Source of the DNA: Flavobacteriaceae bacterium | Lineage (GTDB): Bacteria > Bacteroidota > Bacteroidia > Flavobacteriales > Weeksellaceae | Length of the DNA: 42,915 nt | Assembly (NCBI GenBank): GCA_031276535.1 | Contig: JAISMV010000125.1 | Coordinates: 1-42,915, forward strand | Direction of reading: 5' to 3' | Shown: positions 10,485 through 27,085 of the stretch, piece after piece | Layout of the letters: the number at the start of each line of letters is the position of its first letter | How positions within the stretch are numbered: the first letter of the stretch is position 1 | Notes under the pieces: generated by a model | The model's input: the letters and a program-made list of their open reading frames with translations, nothing else | The model's database searches: none | What the model was told of the DNA's origin: nothing | Made by a program: the position numbers and the translations under genes

Positions 10485-13400
10485 ATGTCAAAAGAAAAAA
10501 AATTATTTGTTCTTTCGCCTTTTGAATTGACAGACGTAGGTTTAGCTTTAAAAACAATAGAAGCGGGAGCTTTCCCAATAGTACACTTGGGAAGGGATAA
10601 AAACGAAGCGGTACAGAACCTGAAAAACTTAACGGAAAAAACAAAAGAATCTTTTGGAGTATGTTTCGCTTCAGAGTCAATGACAGACATTAAACTCCCC
10701 GAAAACGTCACCAAAGTATTTTTACCCTATGGTTATACCTTTCCTGTTAAAAAAGGTATAAAAGTTTACCATCAGGTTCATTCTTTTCAGGAAGCTGAAG
10801 ACGCCGTCAATCAAGGGGCAAAAGCTATTGTTTTAAAAGGGAATGAAGGTGCCGGAAAGGTAGCTTACGAGTCTTCTTTTGTCTTTTTTCAAGGCATAAA
10901 AAATAAATATCCCCAACTGAAAACCGAGATTTATCTTCAGGGAGGAATGGGAATACATACTTCCGCTGCCGCACTGGCAATGGGAGCTCAAGGCATTATC
11001 TTTGACAGTCAGGTAGCTCTGTTCCCTGAATGCAATATACCTAAAGAACTCAAAAACATTTTAAATAAACTAAGTGGAAGTGAAACCGTTTTAGTTGACA
11101 ATTTCCGATTTTTATTAAGGAAAAATTCACCCGTTCTGCCTGCTCAGGCCAAATACGAAGATATAGTTCCTTTCATGGGAGGATTAGACCTCTCTAAAAA
11201 TATTATTCCCGTGGGGCAGGATATATCCCTGTCAATAGATTTTGTAGAACGGTATAAGAATCTGGAAAATTTAGTATATGCTTTCCATGAAGCAGCATAC
11301 GGACACTTACAGCAAGCCCGGTCTTTGAATACAATAGGAGAAAACAGTCCTTTAGCCAAAGATCTGGGATTAAAATATCCTATCGCACAAGGTCCGATGG
11401 CGAGAGTCAGCGATATTCCCGAATTTGCGGAAAAAGTCACCGATGAAGGAGGGCTGCCGTTTATTGCTTTGAGCCTTATGATAGGAAAAGCAGCAAAAGA
11501 TACCCTGTCAGGAACACGAGAGCTCCTGAAAGAAAAACCTTGGGGAGTAGGAATTTTAGGATTTGCTCCGGCACAATTACGTGAGGAACAAATGAAACAT
11601 ATTTTGGAAAACAAACCTCCCGTACTACTTATTGCCGGAGGTCGTCCTTCTCAGGCTAAACCCTACGAAAAAGAAGGAATTAAAGTATTCTTGCACGTTC
11701 CTTCCGTTGCCTTGCTGGATATGTTTTTAAAAGAAGGAGCTAAAGACTTTATTTTCGAAGGACGAGAAAGCGGAGGACATGTAGGACCTCTTTCCAGCAT
11801 GGTTTTATGGGAAAAACAAATAAGCCGCTTATTAAAAGAAGATAACCTTACCTCCTTACGTGTATTCTTTGCCGGAGGCATTCACGATGCCTTTTCCTCT
11901 GCGTTCACCTCTATTATGTCCGCGACCTTAGCCGCTAAAGGGGCGAAAATAGGGGTTCTGATGGGGACTTCTTATTTATTTACCGAAGAAGCCGTTGAAA
12001 CAGGAGCCATCTCTGATGAATATCAAAAACTATCTATTTCTCACAATAAAACAGTTCTATTAGAATCCGCTCCGGGACAGGAAACAAGAGCTTTACCCAC
12101 TCCTTTCACGGACTATTTCAGCCGGGAAAAAGAACGATTGTTCTCCGAAGGACTGGATTCTAAAGAAGTGTGGATGAAACTGGAGGAAATGAATATGGGG
12201 CGGCAGAGAATTGCGGCAAAAGGAATAGAAAGACGGGGCAAAGAGCTTGTCAAACTGGAAAAAGAAGAGCAGATAGAAAAAGGGGTATACATGATCGGAC
12301 AGGTTGCGGCATTACGAAATGAAGCCACAACCATCAAAGAACTACATACCCGGGTTGCAGTCGATAACAACAAGCTGATTTCCCAATTGGAAAAAATTCC
12401 GGCACCGACCATAAAAGAAACCGCTCCAAAGCTGGCTATTGTCGGAATGGCAGGTATATTTCCCCAATCGAGATCATTAGAAGAATATTGGAGAAATATC
12501 CTAATGGGAAAAGATTGTGTAACGGAAGTTCCCGATACCCGATGGAATAAAGAGCTGTTTTTTAATCCGAATACAAGAGATACCGATTATGTATATTCGA
12601 AATGGGGAGGCTTTATCCCCGCTATTGACTTTGACCCGTTGGAATTTGGTATTCCGCCGCAGTCACTTGCCTCTATAGAACCCGTACAATTATTAAGCCT
12701 TTTAGTAGCCAAACGGGCTTTGGAAGACGCCGGTTATGATATGAAAACTTTTGATGGAGAAAATACCTCCGTCGTTGTAGGAGTAGAAGGGTCTACGGAA
12801 TTAGCTTTTGGTTATGGTTTCCGTGGATATGGAAAACAGGTATTCGGAGAACTGCCTAAAGAACTAAAAGATGCTTTGCCGATACTAAATGAAGATTCGT
12901 TTCCGGGCATCCTGTCAAATGTTGTTGCCGGAAGAATCGCTAACCGGCTGAATCTGGGAGGACGTAACTATACTGTTGACGCAGCATGTGCCTCCTCTTT
13001 GGCAGCAATGGATATTGCCTGTCAGGAATTACAAAATAAACGATCCGATATTGTCATTTTCGGAGGATCCGACTTACATAACGGATTATACGACTTTTTA
13101 ATGTTCTCGTCAACTTATGCGCTTTCCAGACAAGGCAGATGCGCTTCTTTCGATGCTTCTGCCGACGGTATCACGTTAGGGGAAGGAATAGGAATGATCG
13201 TTTTAAAAAGACTGGAAGATGCCGAACGGGACGGAGACAGAATATACGCTGTGATCAGAGGTTCCGGAGGCAGTAGCGACGGTAAAAGCCTCGGAATGAC
13301 CGCACCTAATAAGAAGGGGCAGATGAGAGCTTTACAAAGAGCCTATAAAAATTCCGGAACTTTACCTTCTGAAGTGGAATTAATAGAAGCACACGGTACC

Positions 13401-16400
13401 GGAACGGCTGTTGGCGACAAAACGGAACTAAATGCATTAACGGATATGTTTTTAGAATCCGGAGCTGTAACGGGACAAACCTGTTTAAGTTCCGTAAAAT
13501 CTCAAATCGGGCATGCGAAATGTGCTGCCGGTGTATCCGGAGTGATAAAGGCAGTTCTATCCACCTATTACGGTATTAAACCTCCGATCATTAAATTATC
13601 TACTCCTACTTCTTCCTACAAGAAAGAAACCAGTCCTTTTGTATTTAACACAAAAGCGACTATCTGGGGAAGTGAAAAAAGAATTGTCGGGGTGAGTGCT
13701 TTCGGTTTTGGTGGAACAAACTTCCATGTGGTAATGGAAAATTACCAGCCGGAAATTCCTTTTTTGAGCACTATGAATCTGTTGCCGTCAGAACTATTTG
13801 TGTTTAAAGGAGATAACCCGAACGAAGCTAAGCAAATAGCGCTAAAAGTTAAAAATCTTTTAGCTATAAATAATTCTTTTAGCATAAAAAACATAGCCTA
13901 CAGCCTGGCTCTGTACAATGAAAAAGAAGTTCAAATTTCCATAATTGCAGGAGACGTAAAAGAACTGGAGGATAAAATAGATGCCGTGCTTGCCGATAAA
14001 GAAGGAGAAGGTATTTATATCAGAGATCCGAAAGAAGGAAAAGTAGCCTTTTTATTCTCAGGGCAGGGAAGCCAAAGAATTGATATGGCTCGTGAACTTT
14101 TTGTTGCATTTCCTTCCATGAGGAAGTTATTAGTTCAGAATAAGGAATACGAAAATATTCTCCTCCCTCATGCTGTTTTTGATGACGAAAGTAAGGTACA
14201 ACAACAAAAGGCACTGAGAGCGACTCAGAACGCTCAGCCTTCTCTGGGTATAGTTGACTTTGCTATAGCTGATTTCCTTCGCTCTTTGGGAATAGAACCG
14301 GATATGGTTGCAGGACATAGCTACGGGGAACTCCCTGCTTTGTGTTTTGCAGGTGTTTTTGAACCGGAAGAACTCGTTCCTTTAAGCAGAAAAAGGGCAG
14401 ATGCAATTCTGGAAGCTGTAGGAGATGATAAGGGAAAGATGATCGCCGTTAATCTTCCGGATACGGAATTAAATTCCATACTGGCAGGAGAAAAAGATAT
14501 ATGGGCGGTAAACTTTAATTCTCATAAGCAAACCGTACTTGCAGGTTCTACGGCCGCTATGACCGAGTTTATAAAAAAATTAGGACAGCAGAATATCGTT
14601 TATAGAGAGCTTGTTGTTGACTGCGCATTCCACAGTCCTTTGTTAAGCCGTTCAAAAGAACTGTACGCAGAAGAGTTGAAAAGCGTTAAATTCAACGCTC
14701 CCACACTTCCTGTATGGTCAAATACAACAGCTGAAATCTACCCGTCAAAAGCAAACGAAATCAAAAAACGTCTTGCGGAACATTTAGTAAAACCCGTATT
14801 TTTCAGTAAAGAAGTGGATAATATGTATGCCGACGGAGCACGGATATTCATCGAAACCGGTCCGGGAAGAGTATTACTCAACCTCGTTCAGTCCATATTG
14901 GATACGGATGATATTACCACCATCCAGACCGAAGAGAGAGAAAAAGAAGGAACAAGTTTTCTGCTTAATGCCATAGCTAAATATATAGCGACAGGAAGAA
15001 ACATAAATATTAAAAAATTATTTGAAGGAAGAAATGTTTCCGTAATAAACATTGACGCTCCCGAACAATATAAAAAGAAACTTACCAATTGGGTGATTGA
15101 CGGGCATTATGCCATTCCTATAACCGGAATACTTCCTCCACACGGGGCTTTGCCAATAACAAAACCTATGAACTTACTTAAAACCGGAACTTCTTCCGAA
15201 AACCACAATGGAAATCTCACTCAGTCTGATCATGCGATATTGGAATATCTGGATAATATGAAAAACCTGATTCAAAACCAAAGAGACGTCATGCTGACTT
15301 ATCTTGGTCAGAATCCGGCTACTGCTATTGCAGCGCCGCAGACCCGAAATACAACCATTGAAGTCCCGGCTCATGAAGTTCCTGCCCGAAGAAATCTACA
15401 GGTAAACACTCAACAACAAACCATACAGAGTCCGACGGCTGTTCCACAACCCGTCCAGCAAACAACATCAGCTCCTGGGTTATCCGTAGAAGCAATAAAA
15501 GAAACTCTACTGGGAATCGTTAGTGAAAAAACCGGTTATCCGATGGAGATGTTAGAACTGGATCTGGATTTGGAAGCAGATTTAAGTATAGATTCCATTA
15601 AAAGAATGGAGATCATAGGAACCCTAAAAGATAAGTTGGATATCACCATTGACTTTGAAGAGTCTGAAGATGCCATTGAGAAAATAGCTTCCATCAAAAC
15701 GCTTAATGGCTTTATCAACTGGATTGAAGAATTGGCAAATTCCAAACAAGCCGCGAAAATGGTTAAAGATATTGCTAATCCGGTGATCTCCGAATCCGAT
15801 ACTTCGGTTGCGGCTGCTCCGGCTCCTCAAAACAGTGTGCTTTCCATAGAAGAAATCAAAACCTCTTTATTAGAAACCGTTAGTGAAAAAACCGGTTATC
15901 CGATAGAGATGTTGGAACTGGATCTGGACTTGGAAGCGGATTTAAGTATAGACTCCATAAAAAGAATGGAAATCATAGGGGTCTTACGGGAAAAATTAAA
16001 TATTCCTATTGATTTTGAAGAATCTGAGGGAGCTATTGAAAAAATGGCTTCTATCAAAACCCTTAATGGTGTTATCAGCTGGATTGAAGAAGTGACCAAC
16101 GGAAATTCCAACCAGTCCAAACCTGCCCCTAAAACAGAAAATCATGCAAAATCCGCGGCAATAGAGGCTTTCTCTCTTGATCCCGAATTGATATCCGATT
16201 TAGAAGGAAGTTTAGCAGTTGAAAAGAAGGAAGAACCTCTTTTCCGTACCCTTTTCGAACTGGAAAGCTATCCCATCCGCTCATCGGAAAAACTATCCAT
16301 AAGCGGAAAACGTTTCGCTCTTACAAATGATGGGAAGTTGGCCGAAGCCATAAAAAAAACATTGGAAGCCGAAGGTGCTGAAGTAGATATAATTTCAGGA

Positions 16401-17675
16401 AATGAAACCGATTTTTCTTCGTATGACGGATTACTGATTTTAGATGCTTCCGAGTCGCCTAAACAATATACCATAAAAGAAGCCTTCACAATGATCAAGC
16501 AGGCAGATACGGATCGAGTAAAATGGATCTATTTCTTCGGTGACATCGTGGGGAGTTTAGAGGGAAAAGAAGTCATCACGGGAGGAATAAGAAAGATACA
16601 GGGATTTTCAGGGCTGGTAAAAAGTCTTGCTCGTGAATATTCAAGAATAAATTGCAGAGCCATAGTTTCACATTCCGTATTTGAAGTGGAACAATTGTCT
16701 CAAATTGTTTTGAATGAGTTGCAAACTGCCGATATTTCCATAGAAGTGGTGTATAAAGGTTCCGAACGTTTTCGTTATAACCTGGTGCCGGAAACGATTA
16801 CCCTTAACGGACATTCGAATATAAGCCTGACTAAGGATTCCGTGGTGGTGGTTCTGGGAGGAGCTCAGGGAATCACGGCTGAGCTGGTAACTCAGTTATC
16901 CGCAGAATATCCCTGCCATTACATTCTTGTAGGACGTTCTGCAAAGCCTACGGAAGAAGACTATAAATATCTTTCACTAAAAGATAGAAGCGCAATGCGT
17001 AAATATCTGATCAGTGAAGAACATATGAAGAACCTTTCTGAAATTGAGAAAAAAGTTCAGAAAATAGACAAAACCAATCACATCATCAATACGATTTCCA
17101 ATATTGAACGTTCCGGTTCCAAGGTTACCTATGTATCTCTGGATGTAACGGACGAAGAAAATCTGAGAAAGTTCATCAAAGATACCTATAAACAATACGG
17201 GAAAATTGACGGATTTATTCATGCCGCCGGTCTATTGGTAGACAAATTATTTGTCCATAAAACCATAGACGCTTTCGAACAGGTATATTCGACAAAAATA
17301 AATCCGTTGCACGTTATATTGGAAGAACTTCGTCCGGATGTCAGGTTTGTGGTTCTTTTCAGTAGTATTGCTTCGGTATACGGAAGCAGAGGACAATCCG
17401 ATTATGCCGCGGCAAACAGCGTACTGGATTTAACCGCTCAGGTGCTGAACGGAAAGACGGAAACCCGAATATTAACCATTAACTGGGGTCCGTGGAAAGG
17501 CGCCGGAATGGTATCAAGTGCATTGGAAAGTGAATATGTTAAACGAGGAATTGCTCTTATTCCGTTAAAACAAGGTGCTCGTGAGTTCATAAATGAATTA
17601 AAATTCGGGAAAGACCATCAGGTTTTAATCATGGGAGGAGACGATAGCGGAGTGAAACAATTTTTCGGAATTTGA
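10485..17675 (+). CDS. Pfa-like megasynthase 1: NMO-NMO(ER)-KS-AT-ACP-ACP-KR
   Basis: A 2396-residue iterative type I synthase. Residues 1-250: a TIM-barrel-like copy of the nitronate monooxygenase fold, degenerate (GNEGAGKVA near 118 where the partner has ESGGHVG). Residues 290-620: a second such domain of the PfaD enoyl-reductase type, with PIAQGPMARVS, His432 in ESGGHVG, and AGGIHD. KS 648-1075: Cys835 in DAACASS, His970 in EAHGTGT, His1010 in IGHAKCAAG, all intact. AT about 1185-1490: FSGQGSQ and Ser1279 in GHSYGE. Two carrier domains with DLSIDSIKRMEIIG, Ser1704 and Ser1824. KR about 1890-2396: GGAQGIT and Tyr2307 in SDYAAAN. This equals PfaD plus PfaA of omega-3 synthases in one chain; no DH is present, that is on the next protein. 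Cytosolic. It should build an acyl chain from malonyl units; chain length and unsaturation unknown. Confidence 0.93.
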   Translation: MSKEKKLFVLSPFELTDVGLALKTIEAGAFPIVHLGRDKNEAVQNLKNLTEKTKESFGVCFASESMTDIKLPENVTKVFLPYGYTFPVKKGIKVYHQVHSFQEAEDAVNQGAKAIVLKGNEGAGKVAYESSFVFFQGIKNKYPQLKTEIYLQGGMGIHTSAAALAMGAQGIIFDSQVALFPECNIPKELKNILNKLSGSETVLVDNFRFLLRKNSPVLPAQAKYEDIVPFMGGLDLSKNIIPVGQDISLSIDFVERYKNLENLVYAFHEAAYGHLQQARSLNTIGENSPLAKDLGLKYPIAQGPMARVSDIPEFAEKVTDEGGLPFIALSLMIGKAAKDTLSGTRELLKEKPWGVGILGFAPAQLREEQMKHILENKPPVLLIAGGRPSQAKPYEKEGIKVFLHVPSVALLDMFLKEGAKDFIFEGRESGGHVGPLSSMVLWEKQISRLLKEDNLTSLRVFFAGGIHDAFSSAFTSIMSATLAAKGAKIGVLMGTSYLFTEEAVETGAISDEYQKLSISHNKTVLLESAPGQETRALPTPFTDYFSREKERLFSEGLDSKEVWMKLEEMNMGRQRIAAKGIERRGKELVKLEKEEQIEKGVYMIGQVAALRNEATTIKELHTRVAVDNNKLISQLEKIPAPTIKETAPKLAIVGMAGIFPQSRSLEEYWRNILMGKDCVTEVPDTRWNKELFFNPNTRDTDYVYSKWGGFIPAIDFDPLEFGIPPQSLASIEPVQLLSLLVAKRALEDAGYDMKTFDGENTSVVVGVEGSTELAFGYGFRGYGKQVFGELPKELKDALPILNEDSFPGILSNVVAGRIANRLNLGGRNYTVDAACASSLAAMDIACQELQNKRSDIVIFGGSDLHNGLYDFLMFSSTYALSRQGRCASFDASADGITLGEGIGMIVLKRLEDAERDGDRIYAVIRGSGGSSDGKSLGMTAPNKKGQMRALQRAYKNSGTLPSEVELIEAHGTGTAVGDKTELNALTDMFLESGAVTGQTCLSSVKSQIGHAKCAAGVSGVIKAVLSTYYGIKPPIIKLSTPTSSYKKETSPFVFNTKATIWGSEKRIVGVSAFGFGGTNFHVVMENYQPEIPFLSTMNLLPSELFVFKGDNPNEAKQIALKVKNLLAINNSFSIKNIAYSLALYNEKEVQISIIAGDVKELEDKIDAVLADKEGEGIYIRDPKEGKVAFLFSGQGSQRIDMARELFVAFPSMRKLLVQNKEYENILLPHAVFDDESKVQQQKALRATQNAQPSLGIVDFAIADFLRSLGIEPDMVAGHSYGELPALCFAGVFEPEELVPLSRKRADAILEAVGDDKGKMIAVNLPDTELNSILAGEKDIWAVNFNSHKQTVLAGSTAAMTEFIKKLGQQNIVYRELVVDCAFHSPLLSRSKELYAEELKSVKFNAPTLPVWSNTTAEIYPSKANEIKKRLAEHLVKPVFFSKEVDNMYADGARIFIETGPGRVLLNLVQSILDTDDITTIQTEEREKEGTSFLLNAIAKYIATGRNINIKKLFEGRNVSVINIDAPEQYKKKLTNWVIDGHYAIPITGILPPHGALPITKPMNLLKTGTSSENHNGNLTQSDHAILEYLDNMKNLIQNQRDVMLTYLGQNPATAIAAPQTRNTTIEVPAHEVPARRNLQVNTQQQTIQSPTAVPQPVQQTTSAPGLSVEAIKETLLGIVSEKTGYPMEMLELDLDLEADLSIDSIKRMEIIGTLKDKLDITIDFEESEDAIEKIASIKTLNGFINWIEELANSKQAAKMVKDIANPVISESDTSVAAAPAPQNSVLSIEEIKTSLLETVSEKTGYPIEMLELDLDLEADLSIDSIKRMEIIGVLREKLNIPIDFEESEGAIEKMASIKTLNGVISWIEEVTNGNSNQSKPAPKTENHAKSAAIEAFSLDPELISDLEGSLAVEKKEEPLFRTLFELESYPIRSSEKLSISGKRFALTNDGKLAEAIKKTLEAEGAEVDIISGNETDFSSYDGLLILDASESPKQYTIKEAFTMIKQADTDRVKWIYFFGDIVGSLEGKEVITGGIRKIQGFSGLVKSLAREYSRINCRAIVSHSVFEVEQLSQIVLNELQTADISIEVVYKGSERFRYNLVPETITLNGHSNISLTKDSVVVVLGGAQGITAELVTQLSAEYPCHYILVGRSAKPTEEDYKYLSLKDRSAMRKYLISEEHMKNLSEIEKKVQKIDKTNHIINTISNIERSGSKVTYVSLDVTDEENLRKFIKDTYKQYGKIDGFIHAAGLLVDKLFVHKTIDAFEQVYSTKINPLHVILEELRPDVRFVVLFSSIASVYGSRGQSDYAAANSVLDLTAQVLNGKTETRILTINWGPWKGAGMVSSALESEYVKRGIALIPLKQGAREFINELKFGKDHQVLIMGGDDSGVKQFFGI
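15484..16104 (+). repeat. Tandem acyl-carrier-domain repeat (period 360 bp)
   Basis: Two carrier domains inside megasynthase 1, with phosphopantetheine Ser codons at 15594 and 15954, exactly 360 bases apart. The DNA is nearly identical around the attachment site (for example GTTAGTGAAAAAACCGGTTA at 15519 and 15879), pointing to recent duplication or gene conversion. Tandem ACPs raise flux in Pfa-type synthases. Confidence 0.9.
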
Positions 17676-17684
17676 TTTTAAATT

Positions 17685-20600
17685 ATGAAAAATACAGATA
17701 TTGCAATTGTAGGGATGTCTTGTTTCTTACCGGGAGCTGATAACATTGGTGATTTCTGGGATAATTTGGTAAAAGGTATTGATTCTATTACAGATGTTCC
17801 AAAAAACAGAATAGATTCCCTTTATTTTAGAGATGAGATAAAGAAAATAGACCGTTTTTGTTGTCATAAAGGAGGATTTACTTCAACCATAACCGTTAAT
17901 CCTGAACTACTTGAAATATCTCCTCAGGAGGCGAAAGAACTGGATCCCGTTCACTTACTAGCCCTCAAATTGGTTTATCAGGCGCTGGAAGATGCTTCCG
18001 TTTTCGAAAGAAACAGATCTCTCAAAAAGACTTCCGTAATTATCGGAAAAGAAAATTACATCGGAGCTAACGATCTTCGTCTTATAGATATAATACATAC
18101 CGGAGAACAAATAACTCAGGCATTGAAAAATGCCCTTCCGAATCTCTCGGATAAAGATATTGAAAAAGTAAAGGAAGCTTTTCAAAAAGACAAAGGAGCC
18201 GATCAGACCAAAACCTCTTTGGAAAAGGCGCCCAAGTCTATCACCGATATTATAGCAGGTAAGTTAAATATCGAAGGAGCGGCTTATACCATTGATGCTT
18301 CTTGTGCCAGTTCTCTGATCGCCGTGGAACATTCCATACAGGAATTATTAAATGACAGGGCAGATGTGGCTATTGCCGGAGGCATTCATTTTAGCCAGAA
18401 TTCACTTTGTTGGAGCATCTTTTCACAATCCGGAATGCTATCTCAGGAGCAACAAATACGTCCGTTCAGCGAAGATGCTGACGGATTTTTATTAGGAGAA
18501 GGCGCCGGTTTTGTAGTCCTCAGGAGATTAGAAGACGCTCTTTTTGATAATGATAAAATTTATGCCATTATCAAAGGTGTCGGAATAAGCTCTTCCGGAA
18601 CGGAAACAGGTAAGGGTCAAAAGAAAGCTATTCTGGAAGCTTGGGAAAAAGCAAACGTGAAAGCTTCGGATATTGGCTACATAGAGGCAAACGGAATTGC
18701 TGTCAAAAAAGAAGACGAAACGGAATTAGACACGTTGTATCAACTTTTTAAAGATAATTCCAACGATCAAAAAGTTTTGCTGGGTACGGTAAAGCCTAAC
18801 ATAGGACACACCCTTTCCACTTCCGGAATTGCCGGATTGATCAAAACGGCTTTATCCTTATATAACCGGCAGATCCCGGCTACCTTACACTGTGAAAAAC
18901 CCCTTAAACTAATTCAGGAATCTCCTTTTTCACCTGTGCGGAAAACCATAAATTGGAATGAGAAGGAAACTCCTCTTGTAGCGGGAATTAATGCTTTTGG
19001 CTTTGGGGGAATTAACGCCCATGCCGTTTTACAAGCCTCTGACGGAGGGAACAAAGTTCAACCTCCTGTTTTTGAAGAAGAAGTCATCGCAATATCGGCA
19101 TCTTCCAAAGATGCCTTATTGGAAGCCTTAGATAAAAGAAATTTTTCTATTTCCGATTTGAAAGGGAAGTATCGTTTAGTTCTTTTCAACCCTACTTCAG
19201 AACGAATAGAAAAAGCAAAAAAACTTATTGCAAAAGATAAGCCATGGAGAGGAAGGCAAGACATCTGGTTCTCTAATGCCCCTTTATTAAAAGACAATGG
19301 AAAACTGGTTTTTGTTTTTCCCGGATTAGACCCTGCTGCAGGCGCTGAAATTGAAAGTGTTGCCAAGTATTTCGGATATGTCATTCCTGAAGGAATTACG
19401 GAAAAGCATCTGTTGCTTAACACAGCTTCCAGACAATATAATCAGGGAGAAGTTATAGATAACTCATTGAAAAAACTGGGTGTAATTCCGGATATGAATG
19501 CCGGTCACAGTTTAGGGGAATGGTTTGCTTTAAAATCGGGAGATCTGACCTCAAGCACCACAATAAAAGCCTTGTTGGAATCCTTGAATTTTGAAGATTT
19601 TCAAATGGAGGATATACATTTCATCGCAGTGGGAGCCGGAAAAGAAAAAATAACTCCTATATTGAATAAAATCCCGGATCTTTATCTTTCCAATGATAAT
19701 TGTCCCAACCAGACATTGCTCTGCGGTACGGGAGTAGCAAAGGACGCTTTAATAAAAGTTTTAAAGTCGGAACAAATTTTCCATCAGGTATTAGCTTTCC
19801 AATCCGGATTTCATTCTCCGTTTATAAAAGGTAAACTTCATCTTTTAGATGAGGCTTTGGAATGTCTTGATATTAAAAAACATAAAATTCCGATATGGTC
19901 GGCAACTACTTTGGAGCTTTATCCTTCTACTTTTCAGGAGTTCAGAGAACTGACCATAAAACATATGACTCAAACGGTTCGTTTCCGTGAGTTAATAGAA
20001 AAATTACACCTTGAGGAAAATGCACGGGTTTTCATACAGATAGGAGGAGGCAGTCTGGTAGGATTCATAGATGACATTCTTAAAGATCGGGAATATGCAG
20101 CCATATCCGCATGCGTATCGACAAGGAATTCATTAGAGCAACTAAGACGTGTTCTAGCGCTTTTATTTATTGAAGGAAGAAAAATAAATACTTCTTTTCT
20201 GGGATTAAAAGAAGATACCCGGGTATCTTCCCCCGAAATGGAATTTCCGGTGGATTCTTCTCTTGTAAAAACATTTCCTTTACTAAAAGAACTGTCAAAA
20301 AAACAGGTTGAAACTCCAACAGAATCAAAATCTTTGGACTCGTTGTTCATCAAATCCAATCATCCTGTTATTCAGGCAATGAATGACAATATGAAGGAAT
20401 TAATTTTCATGCAAAAAGAATTTTCCGAAATCGTTCAAAAGAAAAAAACATTTGCAGATACAACCTTCAGTTCATACACATTCAATAACGGAACAGCCCC
20501 AAATCAGCCCTATGAACCCTATCCGCAGTCTTTTTCTGTTCCCGAAGACGAAAAACCTGTAACAAGGAAAGGTCTTTCTTTTGAAGAACCCCTATACATC

Positions 20601-22034
20601 GATGTAGAAGACCATCCTTATCTGAAAGATCATTCCCTGATACAACAACCGGAACATTGGACAATTCTGGAAGATATGAGACCGGTTGTTCCGATGACTA
20701 TGACATTTGAACTGCTGGTTGAAGCGGCTCATAGACAAGACTTGAGCAAAAAAGTAATACAAGCGGGACCTGTCAGTGTTTTCCAATGGATGCCGGTACA
20801 TGTTCCATTCCATAAAAAAATTGAAGGAAGATGGATATCTGAAGATAAGATTTTGGTGAAAATTAAAAGTTTTGCCAGCAGTGAAGTCATATTAGGCGAT
20901 TCCTATCCGGAACCCCTTCCTGAGCATCTTCAGGAACTTGATTTAGGTGAGAGTGTGTTGGAACCTCCTACCCGCGAGATAATTTATAAAGATAAACTAT
21001 TTCACGGACCTAGTTATCATGGAATAATAGAAATAAAAGAAATTACACAAAAAGGACTTCGTTGTTTCGTCAAAAAAGCTGCCGGGAAAGGCTCTCTTTT
21101 GGATAATATAGGACAAGTCTTCGGATTGTATTTACAACTGATCTCCGGGGATGAAAATCTCCATATTAGTTTCCCTGTGAAAATTGACGAAGTGAACTTC
21201 TATCAGGATATGCAGGATCAGCAGGGGATATTCGAATGTATATGCCTCACTACATCTATGACAGATAAATTTACTACTGCGGATGTTATTCTCAAAAGAG
21301 AAGGAAAGATCTGGTGTATCATAAAAGGATGGAAGAATCAAATATTTGAGGGATTTGATAAAAAATTGTGGAATATAACCCTGTCTCCGACAAAAGTTCT
21401 TTTATCCAGAATAGTAGCTCCTAATGTTTATTTCTTTGATAATTGTTACAGTACTTATCTGAATTGGAATTTCATACTGAGTATATACCTGAATTCGGAG
21501 GAAAAACACCATCATGAAACCCTTCAATTAAAAAAGAGAAAAGAATATCTGATCAGCCGTATCGCGATAAAAGATGCAGTACGTAATTATATACAGACTA
21601 ATTTTGACAAAGGATATTACCCTGTTGAACTCAAAATCCGATATGATTCCAATAACAAACCCTCTGTATATGGAGTTCCGGAAGCTCAGAAAGTAGAAAT
21701 ATCTTTAGCTCATAAAGGAACCAATTCGGTATGTATAGCCTCTGACAAGCCGGTAGGAATAGACATTGAAACCATTGAAGAACGTGGAACGGGTTTTGTG
21801 GAGTTGACTTTTACGGAAAAAGAATTAAATTTGCTGAAAAACAGGGATTTGTCTGAATGGAGCACCCGTTTTTGGGTAGCTAAGGAAGCCTATGGGAAAA
21901 TGCTCGGTACAGGCTTGAAAGGAAATCCTAAACAATTTGAGGTGGAGGTAATTGAAGGAGAAAATCTGGTAATTCGTGACACAACAATAACCACAATTAA
22001 GTATACTAATTTTATAATAGGATGGACTCAGTAG
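17685..22034 (+). CDS. Pfa-like megasynthase 2: KS(His to Asn)-AT-DH-PPTase
   Basis: A 1449-residue partner starting nine bases after the first. KS-like 1-430: Cys207 in DASCASS and His375 in NIGHTLSTSG are kept, but the HGTGT motif reads EANGIAV, with Asn336 in place of the first His, so condensation is doubtful; it may act as a chain-length or gatekeeping subunit like the CLF of PfaC. AT-like about 540-850: FPGLDP, Ser609 in GHSLGE and FHSPF. Double-hotdog DH about 970-1230: His983 in KDHSLIQQP and Asp1140 in DNIGQ (DxxxQ), preceded by LFHGPSYHG. C-terminal Sfp-type PPTase about 1300-1449: Asp1360 and Glu1362 in GIDIE, and WVAKEAYGK at 1397. The PPTase should load the ACPs of this cluster, as fused PPTases do in enediyne synthases. 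The ACP gene overlaps its end by 13 bases. Confidence 0.92.
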   Translation: MKNTDIAIVGMSCFLPGADNIGDFWDNLVKGIDSITDVPKNRIDSLYFRDEIKKIDRFCCHKGGFTSTITVNPELLEISPQEAKELDPVHLLALKLVYQALEDASVFERNRSLKKTSVIIGKENYIGANDLRLIDIIHTGEQITQALKNALPNLSDKDIEKVKEAFQKDKGADQTKTSLEKAPKSITDIIAGKLNIEGAAYTIDASCASSLIAVEHSIQELLNDRADVAIAGGIHFSQNSLCWSIFSQSGMLSQEQQIRPFSEDADGFLLGEGAGFVVLRRLEDALFDNDKIYAIIKGVGISSSGTETGKGQKKAILEAWEKANVKASDIGYIEANGIAVKKEDETELDTLYQLFKDNSNDQKVLLGTVKPNIGHTLSTSGIAGLIKTALSLYNRQIPATLHCEKPLKLIQESPFSPVRKTINWNEKETPLVAGINAFGFGGINAHAVLQASDGGNKVQPPVFEEEVIAISASSKDALLEALDKRNFSISDLKGKYRLVLFNPTSERIEKAKKLIAKDKPWRGRQDIWFSNAPLLKDNGKLVFVFPGLDPAAGAEIESVAKYFGYVIPEGITEKHLLLNTASRQYNQGEVIDNSLKKLGVIPDMNAGHSLGEWFALKSGDLTSSTTIKALLESLNFEDFQMEDIHFIAVGAGKEKITPILNKIPDLYLSNDNCPNQTLLCGTGVAKDALIKVLKSEQIFHQVLAFQSGFHSPFIKGKLHLLDEALECLDIKKHKIPIWSATTLELYPSTFQEFRELTIKHMTQTVRFRELIEKLHLEENARVFIQIGGGSLVGFIDDILKDREYAAISACVSTRNSLEQLRRVLALLFIEGRKINTSFLGLKEDTRVSSPEMEFPVDSSLVKTFPLLKELSKKQVETPTESKSLDSLFIKSNHPVIQAMNDNMKELIFMQKEFSEIVQKKKTFADTTFSSYTFNNGTAPNQPYEPYPQSFSVPEDEKPVTRKGLSFEEPLYIDVEDHPYLKDHSLIQQPEHWTILEDMRPVVPMTMTFELLVEAAHRQDLSKKVIQAGPVSVFQWMPVHVPFHKKIEGRWISEDKILVKIKSFASSEVILGDSYPEPLPEHLQELDLGESVLEPPTREIIYKDKLFHGPSYHGIIEIKEITQKGLRCFVKKAAGKGSLLDNIGQVFGLYLQLISGDENLHISFPVKIDEVNFYQDMQDQQGIFECICLTTSMTDKFTTADVILKREGKIWCIIKGWKNQIFEGFDKKLWNITLSPTKVLLSRIVAPNVYFFDNCYSTYLNWNFILSIYLNSEEKHHHETLQLKKRKEYLISRIAIKDAVRNYIQTNFDKGYYPVELKIRYDSNNKPSVYGVPEAQKVEISLAHKGTNSVCIASDKPVGIDIETIEERGTGFVELTFTEKELNLLKNRDLSEWSTRFWVAKEAYGKMLGTGLKGNPKQFEVEVIEGENLVIRDTTITTIKYTNFIIGWTQ

Positions 22035-22321
22035 AAAAACAAAAAGAAAAGATATATGAATTACTCAAGCAATTCATAACAGAGATAATAGGGGAAGACA
22101 TTGCCAAAGAACTGGACATCACCCCGGATAGTATTTTTACCAAAGATTTGGAAATGGACAGTATAGAAATTGTTTCTTTTGCAGAAAAGGTAAAAGCTGA
22201 ATATGGTAATGGTATTGATTTTAACGGATGGTTGTCCGAAATGGGGATGGATAAAATAATCAGCCTTTCTATAAAAGATATTGTCAATTTTATTGTAGAT
22301 GCCACTAATTCCGATAAATAA
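22022..22321 (+). CDS. Stand-alone acyl carrier protein
   Basis: A 99-residue carrier with the attachment motif DLEMDSIEIVSFAEKV; Ser47 is the expected phosphopantetheine site. It differs from the integrated carriers (DLSIDSIKR), so it should serve a different partner, for instance loading of a starter acyl chain or transfer of the finished chain to the hydrolase or to an acceptor. It overlaps the 3' end of megasynthase 2 by 13 bases and the next gene by 23 bases, so translation is probably coupled. Length is somewhat above a normal AcpP (about 80), with extra residues at the N-terminus and in the loop YGNGIDFNGWLSEMG. Confidence 0.88.
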   Translation: MDSVEKQKEKIYELLKQFITEIIGEDIAKELDITPDSIFTKDLEMDSIEIVSFAEKVKAEYGNGIDFNGWLSEMGMDKIISLSIKDIVNFIVDATNSDK

Positions 22322-23063
22322 TAAAAAAGTTTTTGTATTAGAATTAAATCCGGAAGCTTCCGAGGCAATAGTATTGATCCATGGAATGTTTACCAACATG
22401 TCTATATTTTACTTTAATATAGCCCCCAAACTGGCAGAAAAGTATCATGTGGTATTATACGACTTACGCAGCCATGGTATGAGCGAAAAAGTTGATCATG
22501 GATACAGTCTGAAAGCATTGTCTCAGGATCTTCTTGATTTAATGGATGTTCTTAATTTATCGAAAGTTGATCTGGTTGGATATAGTTTTGGAGGATTAAT
22601 TTCATTGTACACTGCCATTCATTTTCCTGAAAAAATAAAAAAAATAGCTATAATTGATACACCCACTACCAATAAGGATGGGGATATAGAAAATATTCTT
22701 GAAAAGTACGCAGATGTATATTTAGGAAATTATGTGGGAGATTATACGGCTTCTACCAATATAATCCCTAATAACAAACAGTTGCAAAAAAGCAAAAAAT
22801 TATTTGATTATCTTCTTTACACATCTTCTCTGCCTCAGGATTCAGTTCTTGATAAAAATTTCTCTTCCAAAGAAAACATGAATTTGGTAAAGCATGAAAC
22901 TTTACTTTTATATGGAAATAAATCCGATTGTCTGCCCGATGGGGAGTTTCTTAATGCCCATATTCCCAATTCCATTTTACAAGTAGGAGAGGGAGATCAT
23001 AATATTCCTATCCAAAATTTTGAATGGATTATTGAAAAATTGCATACATTTTTTATTATATAA
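22299..23063 (+). CDS. Alpha/beta hydrolase (thioesterase- or acyltransferase-like)
   Basis: A 254-residue alpha/beta-fold enzyme. Visible: oxyanion loop LIHGMFTN, nucleophile elbow GYSFGG with Ser96, acid in LLYGNKSDC, and the catalytic His in GEGDHNIP near the C-terminus. It has no signal peptide, so it is cytosolic. Placed directly after the free ACP and overlapping it by 23 bases, it is a good candidate for hydrolysing or transferring the finished acyl chain from the carrier. Start ATG 22299 is in the overlap; there is no later Met before the first strand, which supports it. The specific reaction is inferred from position only. Confidence 0.85.
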   Translation: MPLIPINNKKVFVLELNPEASEAIVLIHGMFTNMSIFYFNIAPKLAEKYHVVLYDLRSHGMSEKVDHGYSLKALSQDLLDLMDVLNLSKVDLVGYSFGGLISLYTAIHFPEKIKKIAIIDTPTTNKDGDIENILEKYADVYLGNYVGDYTASTNIIPNNKQLQKSKKLFDYLLYTSSLPQDSVLDKNFSSKENMNLVKHETLLLYGNKSDCLPDGEFLNAHIPNSILQVGEGDHNIPIQNFEWIIEKLHTFFII

Positions 23064-23064
23064 T

Positions 23065-24252
23065 ATGGCTAAATTTTCATTTATAGTTCCTCCTTTCACA
23101 GGACATATCAATCCTACTTTAAGCTTGGGCAATGAACTTCTGAGAAGAAAACATTCCGTTTCTTGGATTAGTCCGGATCCCGGGCTCAAAAGCCAGCTTC
23201 CTTCCGGAGGAGAATTACAGGTTCTTTCCTTTAAACTGGAAGAAGAAGAAAAAAACAAATTGCTCGAACAGGCACAAGAGCTTCAGAAGAAAAAAACATA
23301 CGGTATAGACAGCCTTAAATTCTTATACGAAGAAGTATTAACTCCCATGAATACGTATATGCTTGAGGGAATTGAAGAAATACTAAGTGAATCCCGTCCG
23401 GATGTGGTCATTACCGACCATCAGGTTTTTGCCGGAGCAGTGGCTTCTCTTAAAAAGAATATCCCTTACGCAACCTCTGTCACTGCTCCTGCTTCCATAA
23501 AGGTAAATCCTTTTTTCCCTAAAATACACGAATGGGAAGGAGAACAGGTAATCTCTTTTCAAAAAAAATTCGGAATTTCCGGCAACAAACGTATGGATTG
23601 CTCTTCTTTACTTACTTTAGTTTATGTTTCGAAAGAGTTTTTCGGAGAAACCGACTTATCTTCGAACTATAAATTTATAGGTCCTGTGATAACTCCCCGT
23701 GCTCAAAAAGCAGATTTTGACTGGGAAAAATTGGAAACCGCAGGAGAACAGCGACCTAAGATATTGGTGAGCATAGGTACCACCTTTGATCTTTCTCAGA
23801 AAAAACAGTTTTTCAAAAAAGTTTTTGAAGCTTTTGAAAATGAAAATGTAACGGTAATTGCAGTTTCCGATCCGGAATTATTTGATTCTATCCCGGATAA
23901 TTTCATCATTCAGAAACAGATACCCCAGTTAGACCTGATTCCCCATATGCAGACCGTGATCTGTCATGGAGGCAACAACACCGTTTGTGAGACCCTGTCC
24001 CACGGAATTCCTTTGATTGTTATACCCATTGCGTATGACCAATCCTTTGTTTCAGAATGTGTAACAAACAAAAAGGCAGGAATCCGTCTCAATTTCAACC
24101 GTTTTAACCCTTCGCAGCTGAAGGAGGCTTTTAGTTCTGTTTTAAATGAAACGGAATACAGGCAGAATGCGCAAGCCATTAAAAGATCTTTTGAGGAATC
24201 CGGAGGAGCAGTCAAAGGAGTGGATTATTTAGAAGTTTTATTGAAAAAATAA
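23065..24252 (+). CDS. UDP-glycosyltransferase, GT1/MGT family (first of a tandem pair)
   Basis: A 395-residue GT-B enzyme. The N-terminus MAKFSFIVPPFTGHINPT carries the catalytic-type His14 of GT1 enzymes; the C-terminal sugar-nucleotide site is CHGGNNTVCETLSHGIP followed by PIAYDQ. The family (macrolide glycosyltransferases, CrtX zeaxanthin glucosyltransferases) moves glucose or a similar sugar from UDP to hydroxyls of lipophilic acceptors. An earlier in-frame ATG at 23020 lies inside the hydrolase gene; ATG 23065, one base after that gene's stop, gives the canonical N-terminus and was chosen. It probably glycosylates a hydroxyl of the synthase product. Confidence 0.9.
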   Translation: MAKFSFIVPPFTGHINPTLSLGNELLRRKHSVSWISPDPGLKSQLPSGGELQVLSFKLEEEEKNKLLEQAQELQKKKTYGIDSLKFLYEEVLTPMNTYMLEGIEEILSESRPDVVITDHQVFAGAVASLKKNIPYATSVTAPASIKVNPFFPKIHEWEGEQVISFQKKFGISGNKRMDCSSLLTLVYVSKEFFGETDLSSNYKFIGPVITPRAQKADFDWEKLETAGEQRPKILVSIGTTFDLSQKKQFFKKVFEAFENENVTVIAVSDPELFDSIPDNFIIQKQIPQLDLIPHMQTVICHGGNNTVCETLSHGIPLIVIPIAYDQSFVSECVTNKKAGIRLNFNRFNPSQLKEAFSSVLNETEYRQNAQAIKRSFEESGGAVKGVDYLEVLLKK

Positions 24253-24256
24253 CAGT

Positions 24257-25468
24257 ATGGCAAAATTTGTATTTGTAGTTCCTCCCTTTCTTGGGCATAT
24301 TAACCCCTCTCTCAGCATTGGCAGAACTCTTTTGGAAAGAGGACATGAAGTGGTTTGGGCAGGGTTAACGGAGATAAACTCCGAACTTATTCCTTCAGGG
24401 GGATATTATCATGTATTGGAACAATCGTATAAAGAGAACAAAAAAGAAATAGAGGATATTATCCAGCTGCAAAACAAAGGAGCGGGTATGTCAGCGCTGG
24501 AAGCTTTAAAACTAGGATTACAAGACACCTACATTCCTTTTGCCAAAATAATGTTTGATGAGTTCACCACGTGGGTTGGCAGCTATAATCCGGATGTGAT
24601 AGTTAACGATTGCATTTCTTTTGTCGGAGGATTGACCGCTCATATTAAGAAAATTCCGTTGGCTACTCTTACTCCCATCACTCCCAATGCGCTCCATGAC
24701 CCGGGTGTAGCTCCTGAAATTACCAAATGGGTACATAATTCCATAATCGGATTACAACGATCGGTGGGAATTTCCGGGGATGAGGAATTGGTTTTTTCCA
24801 AAAAGTTAAATATGTATTACACGTCCCAAAAATTTGTAAGATATAAAGATAACGACTGTCCTCCTTATATGAAGTTTATAGGAGCTTTAACCGGACGCCC
24901 CGATAATACCCCCTTTGACTGGGAAAGATTAAAAAAAATAAAGACCCCAAAAGTCTATATTTCTGTGGGAACCGTATTGGTAGATGTCCGCAAGGAATTC
25001 TTTCATCGTATGATTCAGGCTCTGGGCAATAAAGAAATAACCGTCATTGCGGCTGCAGACCCCTACATTATAGAAGATTGGCCGGATAATTTCATAGTAC
25101 AAAGATATGTCCCCCAATTCGAGCTTTTAAAACACGTGGACGTGGTTATCGGTCATGGAGGATTAAATACAGTCTGTGACACTTATATAAACGGAATCCC
25201 CATGCTCGTTATCCCTATGGCTTTTGACCAATTCCATACAGCGTCTTTGATTGAGCAGTGCGGATGCGGCATACGAATACGGTATAAACGTATGAGAATT
25301 CAGGATGTAGAACATGCTGTTGAGGAATTGTTATATAATCCTAAATATAAAACAGCGGCAGAGGAAATTCGGCAATCTTTCATTGAGGCAGGAGGAAACG
25401 AAAGGGCGGCAAATTTACTGGAAGAACTTTCCGTGACAAAGAATATCGTAAAATATCATAAGTTATAA
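24257..25468 (+). CDS. UDP-glycosyltransferase, GT1/MGT family (second of a tandem pair)
   Basis: A 403-residue GT-B enzyme that starts four bases after its neighbour's stop. It opens with MAKFVFVVPPFLGHINPS (His14) and has the donor motif GHGGLNTVCDTYINGIP and PMAFDQ. It is visibly a paralogue of the preceding gene, from tandem duplication, but with differing middle regions, so the acceptor or sugar order may differ. Two sequential transferases would give a diglycosylated product, or one on each of two hydroxyls. No membrane helix; it is cytosolic or membrane-peripheral. Confidence 0.9.
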   Translation: MAKFVFVVPPFLGHINPSLSIGRTLLERGHEVVWAGLTEINSELIPSGGYYHVLEQSYKENKKEIEDIIQLQNKGAGMSALEALKLGLQDTYIPFAKIMFDEFTTWVGSYNPDVIVNDCISFVGGLTAHIKKIPLATLTPITPNALHDPGVAPEITKWVHNSIIGLQRSVGISGDEELVFSKKLNMYYTSQKFVRYKDNDCPPYMKFIGALTGRPDNTPFDWERLKKIKTPKVYISVGTVLVDVRKEFFHRMIQALGNKEITVIAAADPYIIEDWPDNFIVQRYVPQFELLKHVDVVIGHGGLNTVCDTYINGIPMLVIPMAFDQFHTASLIEQCGCGIRIRYKRMRIQDVEHAVEELLYNPKYKTAAEEIRQSFIEAGGNERAANLLEELSVTKNIVKYHKL

Positions 25469-25510
25469 GATTATATTTCAATTTTTTATGGAATTTAAAA
25501 GCACATCAAC

Positions 25511-27085
25511 ATGAATAAAAATTTGTTTTCCACAGTAACGGATAAAAAATGTCTTTTATTGATTTTCATCTATATAATTTCCTTGTTAATAGGATCTTCT
25601 AAGATGTCTCCGCTTTATGCCGCCAATGAATGGTCAGACCCGAACATTTATTTTAACGTGGGGAAAGCAATGGTACACGGAAAAACCCTGTATACGGAAG
25701 TTTTCGACCATAAAGGACCTCTGATTTTCTTTATCTACGCTGCCGGTTATCTTATTTCCAATGATTCCTTTTTCGGAATGTTTATCATTGAATTGTCTTT
25801 CTGGCTGGTACTGGCTTATTCTCTGTACTTTACCGCGCGTATTTATTTGGGAAAGGCTGCTTCTTGCATTGTCAGCATAAGTTTCTTCCTTTTTCTTGTA
25901 GAGTTAATGAAAGCAGGAGGCTCCGCGGAGGAATTCATATTGTGTTTTGAATCGGTCAGCTTATACTTTTTTCTGAAATATTTCAATAGTGGTTCTACGC
26001 CCCATAAACCCGGATATATGCTGTTACACGGTGCAATGGTCACAGCAACTCTTTTGATCAAAATAAACCTTATTATTTTTTGGTTTTTTCCTTTACTGTT
26101 TATTTTTATAAAACTTCTTTTACAAAAAGAATTTAAGAATTTTATTTTAAACGTTTTAGCCTATATAGCCGGAACCGTTATTGTCAGTATGCCCATATTA
26201 GGGTATCTTTGGACGCATGATGCACTGGAAGAAGCGTATAATATTTACATTGTGCTTAATAAATCCTATGCAAAACTACAGTCTTTACCAAAAATCATAT
26301 CATTGCTCCTGTTCCGAACCATGTACTTATTCCTCACCCCAATGTCCTTGCTGCTGTTTGCCCCTATAGGAATATTCTATTTCCCGATAAAGTGCATGAA
26401 GAACAAAATAGAAAAATGGAGTATCGTGCTATCCGGTATTAGCTTATATAGTTCCATATTCATAGGAAAATTTCAATACTACTACCCTATTCCTTTTATT
26501 ATTTTCAGCGCTTTAGGTCTGATAGGAGTATCTTTATATTTAAGAAAATATGTCTCATTACAATTAACTACAAAATCTCTCAGCTTAGTTTGTTGTATAT
26601 GTTTATTTGCAGGATTAAGCATCTATCCTCCCGGAAATACACTTATTGACGAATATTTCCTGAGAGAACCCGAAAACCGATCATTAGCCTTACAAACCGA
26701 CAGGTTGAAAAAAGAAATTACAAAAGAAAAAAATCCTACCCTTCTAAACTTAGGTTTCGGTATGGGAAATAGTTTGTTCTCTACCTGTAATATTGTTCCT
26801 AATGTAAAATATTTTATACGTCCTAACCTGTCGTATGATTTTTACCCGGAACTAAGAAAAGAACAATTCGAGTATATAAAAAATAAAAAAACGCAATTTG
26901 TTATAATACAAGAATTTGTAGCTATAAAAGAGCTGTATAAAGGAGATAACCCTGTAGACAGGCCGGATTTTCTGAAAAGACTTCCTGCCCTTGCCGAAAA
27001 CTACAGGCTGGTCCTTTCGGATACCATCGTTAATAAAATAGACGAAAATTCTACGGAGGTTTATTTTTTATATAAAAGAAAATAA
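25511..27085 (+). CDS. Polytopic GT-C-type glycosyltransferase (ArnT/PMT-like)
   Basis: A 524-residue protein with about ten hydrophobic segments in residues 10-370 and a C-terminal soluble part of about 140 residues. The first periplasmic loop, NEWSDPNIYFNVGKAMVHGK and TLYTEVFDHKGPLIFF, fits the GT39/GT83-like pattern (acidic residue after helix 1, then DHKGPL). Members take sugars from polyprenyl-phosphate carriers on the outer face of the inner membrane. It ends the operon: 42 bases after the second GT1 gene and nine bases before a MITE-like repeat. I infer that it adds a sugar to the lipid after flipping. The exact family is uncertain because the hallmark is short. Confidence 0.75.
   Translation: MNKNLFSTVTDKKCLLLIFIYIISLLIGSSKMSPLYAANEWSDPNIYFNVGKAMVHGKTLYTEVFDHKGPLIFFIYAAGYLISNDSFFGMFIIELSFWLVLAYSLYFTARIYLGKAASCIVSISFFLFLVELMKAGGSAEEFILCFESVSLYFFLKYFNSGSTPHKPGYMLLHGAMVTATLLIKINLIIFWFFPLLFIFIKLLLQKEFKNFILNVLAYIAGTVIVSMPILGYLWTHDALEEAYNIYIVLNKSYAKLQSLPKIISLLLFRTMYLFLTPMSLLLFAPIGIFYFPIKCMKNKIEKWSIVLSGISLYSSIFIGKFQYYYPIPFIIFSALGLIGVSLYLRKYVSLQLTTKSLSLVCCICLFAGLSIYPPGNTLIDEYFLREPENRSLALQTDRLKKEITKEKNPTLLNLGFGMGNSLFSTCNIVPNVKYFIRPNLSYDFYPELRKEQFEYIKNKKTQFVIIQEFVAIKELYKGDNPVDRPDFLKRLPALAENYRLVLSDTIVNKIDENSTEVYFLYKRK

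Follow-up and report, generated by a model that had tools for sequence, protein, structure and literature searches.

Secondary-lipid synthases and the Apibacter operon

The closest described relatives of the system considered here, an operon of seven genes on the forward strand at positions 10485-27085 of contig JAISMV010000125.1 (Flavobacteriaceae bacterium, assembly GCA_031276535.1), are the ArsA/ArsD type I fatty acid synthases (FASs) of the ars (Type P) phenolic-lipid operon, found in Azotobacter and Beijerinckia. The excerpted text of Shulse & Allen 2011 (PMC3098273) lists Type P with phenolic-lipid alkyl chains such as C22 and Beijerinckia indica ATCC 9039 as Type P, and reports that phenolic lipids were not found to be made by Beijerinckia; an excerpt of PMC4824345 states that ArsA makes C23-C25 fatty acids. 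A plasmid of B. indica ATCC 9039 codes for a 2674-aa protein with two nitronate monooxygenase-like stretches (NMO), a ketosynthase (KS), an acyltransferase (AT), two acyl carrier proteins (ACPs) and a ketoreductase (KR), in the order NMO-NMO-KS-AT-ACP-ACP-KR, together with two genes read as type III polyketide synthases (PKSs) and a protein joining a dehydratase (DH) of the PS-DH type to a phosphopantetheinyl transferase (PPTase); a Methylosinus locus is built likewise, with one type III PKS-like gene.

The stretch of DNA analysed, hereafter the window, comprises positions 1 to 42,915 of the contig. Its genome (2.29 Mb in 152 contigs, 93.5% complete) shares a single genus, Apibacter, with eight other genomes, the named members being A. 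mensalis, A. adventoris, A. muscae and one Apibacter metagenome-assembled genome (MAG), and the host niche is the insect gut. With a probability that we put at about 0.6, the operon encodes a glycolipid (secondary-lipid) pathway whose core is a two-chain iterative type I FAS resembling ArsA/ArsD. Its gene layout is shared with many relatives and is in part known; the genus-specific loss of the active site of the second KS (KS2) is new.

Domain architecture of the synthase

The preliminary description had read seven same-strand genes with a particular set of domains, and both the open reading frame (ORF) check and Pfam agree with it. The first chain, P1 (10485-17675, 2396 aa), has the order NMO-NMO-KS-AT-ACP-ACP-KR, of which Pfam recognises an NMO, the KS, the AT, two ACP stretches and the KR. 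The first NMO-like barrel (10485-11339, residues 1-285) is the weaker one, with no score of its own in the window, while the relatives display two NMO stretches; its GGH motif is mostly lost, KGNEAGGH being found in only 2 of 78 P1 rows (four genomes entered twice), whereas EGRE-x-GGH marks the second barrel in all 78. The second barrel (11340-12404, residues 286-640) is a FabK-like FMN enoyl reductase (ER): the FabK model TIGR03151 matches 18/18 alignment members (E <= 0.001), although the 137.3 bits of the window lie below the equivalog cut-off of 453.1, and a PDB FabK profile matches with E 5.5e-24. TIM-barrel ERs are said, in an excerpt of PMC13311796, to need dimerisation, and the first barrel might, as an idea, act as a built-in dimer partner of the ER. 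In a search of plasmids with the NMO-NMO stretch, 64 records match; five cover at least 80% of it, every one within a large synthase gene, and the remaining 25 rows among the matches listed cover the second (FabK) barrel only. Downstream of the barrels, KS1 (12420-13769, residues 646-1095; PF00109/PF02801) retains Cys-His-His and is intact by motif in 78/78 P1 rows; it is followed by AT1 (14049-14996, residues 1189-1504; PF00698) with the motif GHSYG, by two tandem ACPs (15504 to approximately 16070; PF00550 in two stretches) with LSIDSIKR at about residues 1700 and 1820, and by the KR (16842-17498, residues 2120-2338; PF08659).

The second chain, P2 (17685-22034, 1449 aa), is ordered KS-AT-DH-PPTase, with the KS, AT and PPTase matched by Pfam. 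The degenerate KS2 (17685-19055, residues 1-457) precedes three domains with approximate limits, namely AT2 (19287-20174, about residues 535-830; PF00698), which keeps GHSLG, the PS-DH type dehydratase (20577-21404, about residues 965-1240) and an Sfp-like PPTase (21492-22031, about residues 1270-1449; PF01648, Sfp profile match at E 5.2e-7). The DH has no Pfam match in the window itself, and PS-DH is recognised in 14 of the 16 relatives of a 17-row alignment (E <= 0.1, best 1.8e-5), across all rows of which one His and one Asp, presumably the catalytic residues, are invariant. The two chains thereby hold the full set of synthase activities, which supports the proposed pathway.

Tailoring genes and proposed pathway

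P2 is followed by a discrete ACP (22022-22321; PF00550, motif DLEMDSIE) and by an alpha/beta hydrolase (22299-23063; PF00561), a candidate thioesterase or transferase. Two adjoining MGT-type glycosyltransferases, GT1a (23065-24252) and GT1b (24257-25468), are both UDPGT/EryCIII-like in Pfam, with TIGR01426 scores of 189.9 and 181.3 bits, respectively, against a cut-off of 260; YjiC is among the best PDB matches of GT1a, and GT1b adjoins GT1a in the relatives as well. The last gene (25511-27085) codes for a GT-C membrane glycosyltransferase (PF13231 PMT_2, 31.1 bits vs a cut-off of 26.1; eight hydrophobic segments by simple count). Upstream of P1, on the same strand, a MATE-family transporter (8605-9981; PF01554) is a candidate for exporting or flipping the product. 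The operon parts are all found in the same order in six other Apibacter genomes, except for KS2 in A. adventoris; since, in addition, the core recurs in other taxonomic orders, the operon is not a chance arrangement.

The chain length, saturation, sugar order, transport and envelope location of the product we infer as follows. KS1 and AT1 of P1 would lengthen an acyl chain on the tandem ACPs with malonyl units; the ACPs would be armed by the PPTase of P2, and the chain reduced by the KR of P1, the PS-DH of P2 and the FabK-type ER of P1. Since KS2 is without a canonical active site in Apibacter, elongation is expected to proceed there on KS1 alone. The finished chain, probably of more than 18 carbons, mostly saturated and possibly keeping a hydroxyl from the last cycle, would pass via the discrete ACP to the hydrolase, for release or transfer. 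Glycosylation by GT1a and GT1b would then take place on the cytosolic side, the MATE protein would carry the glycolipid across the inner membrane, and GT-C would add a further sugar in the periplasm from a polyprenyl-phosphate donor.

Distribution and tailoring branches

A scan of named genomes returned at least 569 relatives of the NMO-NMO stretch, of which the best 80 were kept for locus counts. Among these, 67 have a closed P1 of at least 2200 aa (motif filter), and 64 of the 67 adjoin a P2 of at least 1380 aa; nine further loci escaped the filter, and four have a broken or open P1. Of the nine, eight do carry a long P1 frame, of 2184-2350 aa and open at the 5' end in one case, and the other, L054, has 864 aa on a 3.4-kb contig. 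The domain order, considered unusual in the preliminary description, is thus not unusual, a full P1 standing beside a full P2 in 64 of the 80 loci. Moreover, two Streptomyces plasmids share P1-P2-ACP-hydrolase-GT followed by a methyltransferase, with transposase genes nearby (in one of them, identity to the window P1 is 46% in KS-AT and 39% in NMO), and a fused pfaDA / pfaBC-PPTase layout has been published, as described in an excerpt of PMC13291983.

By record title, 78 of the best 80 loci belong to Bacteroidota, including Chryseobacterium, Flavobacterium, Pedobacter, Mucilaginibacter, Chitinophaga, Dyadobacter, Dysgonomonas, Parabacteroides, Apibacter and MAGs. The remaining two (L057, L062) lie on MAG contigs labelled Clostridiales Family XIII, by transfer to Firmicutes or by misbinning. 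P1 frames are interrupted, through sequencing error or decay, in Chitinophaga pinensis YS-16 (L111), Dyadobacter frigoris (L065) and Chryseobacterium sp. CH25 (L120). Across 395 genomes of the phylum, the one under study included, the full NMO-NMO stretch occurs in three others and the FabK part only in two more. At E <= 1e-30, P2 is present in six of the eight other members of the genus, and 51 further relatives give no such match; in the two operon-free Apibacter genomes the KS of P1 goes unmatched, the sole match being to an AT-like stretch.

In 19 regions of relatives, the core is followed by different sets of genes. ACP and hydrolase come after P2 in 18 of them, the nineteenth (L138, a 2.6-kb contig end) holding neither, and the discrete ACP is present in 6/6 operon-bearing Apibacter genomes. 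In 14 of the 19 regions the core is succeeded by GT1-type genes, which is why a glycosylated long-chain product is the best reading and why the self-contained iterative synthase coupled to glycosyltransferases, put forward in the preliminary description, stands. In the first branch, GT1a-GT1b-GTC, Apibacter is joined by two of the 19 regions, those of Dysgonomonas mossii and a Prevotella MAG, where the whole order MATE-P1-P2-ACP-hydrolase-GT1-GT1-GTC recurs and is continued by a 3-hydroxyacyl-CoA dehydrogenase gene (by Pfam in Prevotella, by eye in D. mossii). GT-C homologues occur in five of 23 genomes searched, all of this branch: three Apibacter, D. mossii and the Prevotella MAG. In the second branch (12/19; Chryseobacterium, Flavobacterium, Pedobacter, Mucilaginibacter, Chitinophaga and Dyadobacter), GT1a-GT1b is accompanied by two or three PapA/condensation-like acyltransferases that replace GT-C; GT1a and GT1b are fused in Chryseobacterium and Flavobacterium, and in D. 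jiangsuensis only GT1a is called, perhaps owing to the ORF filter. The third branch (3/19; two Tannerellaceae and one Parabacteroides) has no glycosyltransferase, carrying instead two permease-like and two further genes (labels by eye) and a MATE gene.

The MATE gene sits with the synthase in two arrangements, which counts in favour of the proposed pathway: directly before P1 in Apibacter, D. mossii and the Prevotella MAG (53-69% identity), and downstream of the hydrolase, as a 44-46% homologue, in the three Tannerellaceae/Parabacteroides clusters. Within the genus, identity is 62-69% in the six operon-bearing genomes, and only 40-41% homologues occur in the two operon-free ones.

MATE proteins typically export small molecules, and together with GT1s that are nearest, though below cut-off, to the MGT/YjiC macrolide-type family, and with branch 3 clusters bearing permease-, adaptor- and outer-membrane-factor-like genes (by eye), this would suit an exported bioactive glycosylated polyketide, such as an antibiotic-like or signalling glycoside, rather than a structural lipid, with MATE as exporter and the GT1s as macrolide-type decorators. 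Such a product is nonetheless unlikely: the fully reducing domain set, the tandem ACPs and the kinship with ArsA point to a long alkyl chain, GT-C implies a further addition of sugar at the membrane, and the PapA-like acyltransferases of 12/19 regions fit acylated glycolipids.

Several observations weigh against a glycolipid made on an ArsA/ArsD-like synthase. The core occurs without glycosyltransferases in the three Tannerellaceae/Parabacteroides clusters and, as core alone, in one Bacteroidales region; both GT1 scores fall under the TIGR01426 family cut-off; and a sequence search for GT-C returned no solved relative. No MATE gene was found in the stretches read of the 12 PapA-type clusters (9/99 loci match overall), so that the gene is not general, and soluble compounds, too, are exported by MATE proteins. 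The chain length of ArsA/ArsD may not apply here, because loci of that type have neither KS2 nor AT2 and supply type III PKSs, and in the tree of KS domains alone the ArsA-type KS do not join KS1, the forks being weak (80/69 and 88/85). To our knowledge, no product is known for any glycosyltransferase-bearing member of the family.

Phylogeny and the omega-3 alternative

In a KS-AT tree of 19 rows, from which NMO was excluded, 14 double-NMO synthases fall on one side (100/99), apart from the PfaA-like proteins, with a Rhodobacteraceae plasmid double-NMO synthase as a long branch. The PfaA-like references, whose labels were read from domains, are a Persicobacter locus (KS-AT-ACPn plus a KS-KS protein) and four proteins in which KS starts within 20 residues. 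In a tree of KS domains alone (61 rows), the KS1 of Bacteroidota and Streptomyces unite (97/98), as do the KS2 of both (100/98), the placement of the ArsA-type KS being weak. In Apibacter, P1 clusters with rows of Dysgonomonas, Prevotella and Bacteroidales (100/99) and not with Chryseobacterium of the same family, which suggests transfer among gut lineages.

The preliminary description had taken omega-3 Pfa synthases as the closest kin, and a repacked Pfa synthase, making a polyunsaturated chain that is then glycosylated, would account for P1 passing the cut-off of the PfaA subfamily (TIGR02813, 1045.6 vs 1010.1 bits) and for the KS2 clade being sister to PfaC-like KS (98/94, long branches). 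This origin is quite improbable. A search of the genome with TIGR02814 (E <= 0.001) for a PfaD-family ER gave no match in the window and one weak match elsewhere; the Pfam scan of the window gave no FabA-like DH; no chain length factor (CLF) was seen, KS2 being followed by an AT; the DH of the relatives is PS-DH; and the KS-AT tree sets P1 with the ArsA-type side. Because the ER is FabK-like and the DH is a PS-DH, an omega-3 polyunsaturated product appears unlikely, and a mainly saturated long chain likelier. As for the hydroxy or polyene lipid initially envisaged, the polyene is disfavoured by these same findings, and a hydroxyl kept from the last cycle is only possible.

Degeneration of the second ketosynthase

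KS2 is changed in 7/7 Apibacter operons, where either the conserved active-site His is lost or the whole domain is gone, and this loss is specific to the genus. Conversely, Cys-His-His is kept in 66/66 KS2 rows outside the Apibacter operons and in 8/8 further loci. The set counts 77 rows, related and not independent, of which 11 are Apibacter operons from seven genomes (four counted twice), and KS2 was read in all but four of the best 80 loci (L053, L054, L099 and L114 left out). Of the Apibacter operons, that of the window keeps the most, its triad being Cys, Asn, His, with the first His replaced by Asn and EANGIAV in place of the EAHGTGT of a paralogue; three operons have Glu, Asn, His, one has Thr, Asn, His, A. 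muscae has Tyr, Ser, Asn, and the P2 of A. adventoris, of 969 aa, is without KS2. The operons may be arranged in a series in which His was lost first, then Cys, and finally the domain was deleted, with the order taken from the tree. The loss of the His had not been visible to the preliminary description.

The paralogous P1-P2 pair, on another contig of the same genome (C54; L004:2622-13891, minus strand), is 61% identical in P1 and 42% in P2, with an intact KS2 and one ACP by Pfam; no ACP, hydrolase or GT1 gene lies within the stretch read. Outside the genus, a P2 of 971 aa without KS2, followed only by ACP and hydrolase, is found in the Bacteroidales MAG Md513 (L141, from the genome of L114), and represents a second, independent loss.

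The ratio of nonsynonymous to synonymous substitutions (dN/dS), obtained by simple NG86 counts with which distant pairs are saturated, is, in three close pairs, 0.01-0.02 for KS1, 0.03-0.09 for AT2, 0.05-0.08 for DH, 0.06-0.10 for PPTase and 0.11-0.19 for KS2. Selection on KS2 is therefore relaxed but still constrained. That the entire operon is in decay and yields little product or none, with KS2 loss as the first sign of this, would be in line with a KS2 changed in all seven operons and gone in one, and with the absence of the operon from two of the eight other Apibacter genomes (one 83% complete); it is nevertheless very improbable, given that the other motifs checked are intact and the long frames open in all seven operons, and that KS2, though relaxed, remains constrained beside the 0.01-0.10 of the other domains.

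A more far-reaching scenario, which we regard as tentative and somewhat doubtful, is that Apibacter turned a two-KS megasynthase into a one-KS enzyme, in which KS2 would persist as a non-catalytic, constrained scaffold (gone in A. adventoris) and chain length would have been reset, yielding a host-gut-specific, three-sugar envelope glycolipid that Dysgonomonas and other gut Bacteroidales would share through horizontal transfer.

Gene starts, regulation and neighbouring genes

The listed frame of GT1a begins at TTG 23020; the start is better placed at ATG 23065, which would give MAKFSFIVPP, close to the MAKFAFIVPP of a relative, and leave a 1-base gap after the hydrolase. An Rfam search of the window returned no matches. 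Between 9900 and 10600, a promoter scan of both strands yielded six sites, where shuffled sequence gave 4.4 on average (sd 1.9). The Bacteroidota-type -33/-7 pattern matched once, away from P1, with 1.12 expected. One terminator-like site lies on the minus strand inside P1 (shuffle mean 0.1).

The histidine kinase and response regulator genes at 6231-8497 were considered as part of the unit and rejected; they are treated as neighbours, for they persist in two cluster-free Apibacter genomes, in one of which (G005) they stand beside gltX, followed by another gene, and in the other (G004) on a 5.6-kb contig that ends just past the response regulator gene and has no gltX match. In G006 (L036), two tandem response regulator genes separate the histidine kinase from MATE, versus one in the window.

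Significance and comparison with known systems

A large, uncharacterised synthase family of Bacteroidota is hereby tied to a characterised one, ArsA/ArsD, and to a handful of tailoring modules (GT-C, PapA-like or transporter), and its products therefore become predictable and testable. The KS2 series of Apibacter is a natural experiment on the role of the second condensing domain in secondary-lipid synthases, and a glycolipid of insect-gut symbionts could affect colonisation or host interaction. A literature search, at the level of listings, found no publication on a polyketide or glycolipid pathway of Apibacter.

The heterocyst glycolipid (hgl) synthase is, as here, a secondary-lipid synthase clustered with a glycosyltransferase; the likeness is one of functional analogy, and none of the operon's genes struck us as resembling a fatty-alcohol-forming reductase. 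With the omega-3 synthase (PfaA-E), P1 shares the PfaA-like KS-AT-ACPn-KR order, whereas the ER belongs to another family, two FabA-like DHs stand against the PS-DH of the window, and a CLF is part of the Pfa system.

The kinship with ArsA/ArsD is closer. The P1 order is common to the window and to the Beijerinckia and Methylosinus loci compared, the Beijerinckia P1 is 37-39% identical to that of the window in NMO and KS-AT, and the ArsA/ArsD KS-AT stands on the same side of the 19-row tree as P1 (100/99). In both Beijerinckia and Methylosinus, PS-DH and PPTase form a separate protein with both domains above cut-off, and P2 is 26% identical over 530 aa to that of Beijerinckia. Their DH-PPTase protein, however, is without KS2 and AT2, and type III PKS-like partners take the place of the glycosyltransferases: a Pfam scan of 27 window proteins shows no type III PKS, glycosyltransferases standing there instead.

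Two further layouts come near. In the fused pfaDA / pfaBC-PPTase layout of Renibacterium, Aquimarina and Flavobacterium (PMC13291983, 2026, from an excerpt), there are likewise two chains, with an ER fused to the PfaA-like chain and a PPTase on the second. Among the uncharacterised secondary-lipid synthases of Types M and N, as they appear in the excerpted part of Shulse & Allen 2011 (PMC3098273), the Type N genera Chitinophaga and Chryseobacterium carry the two-chain family described here. The Type N cluster is that of Chitinophaga pinensis and Chryseobacterium gleum; the family was seen in C. pinensis YS-16 and many Chryseobacterium, C. gleum being absent from the best 80 loci kept. The Apibacter operon differs from all of these (Types M and N and the pfaDA layouts) in that it adds GT-C and MATE and carries a degenerate KS2.

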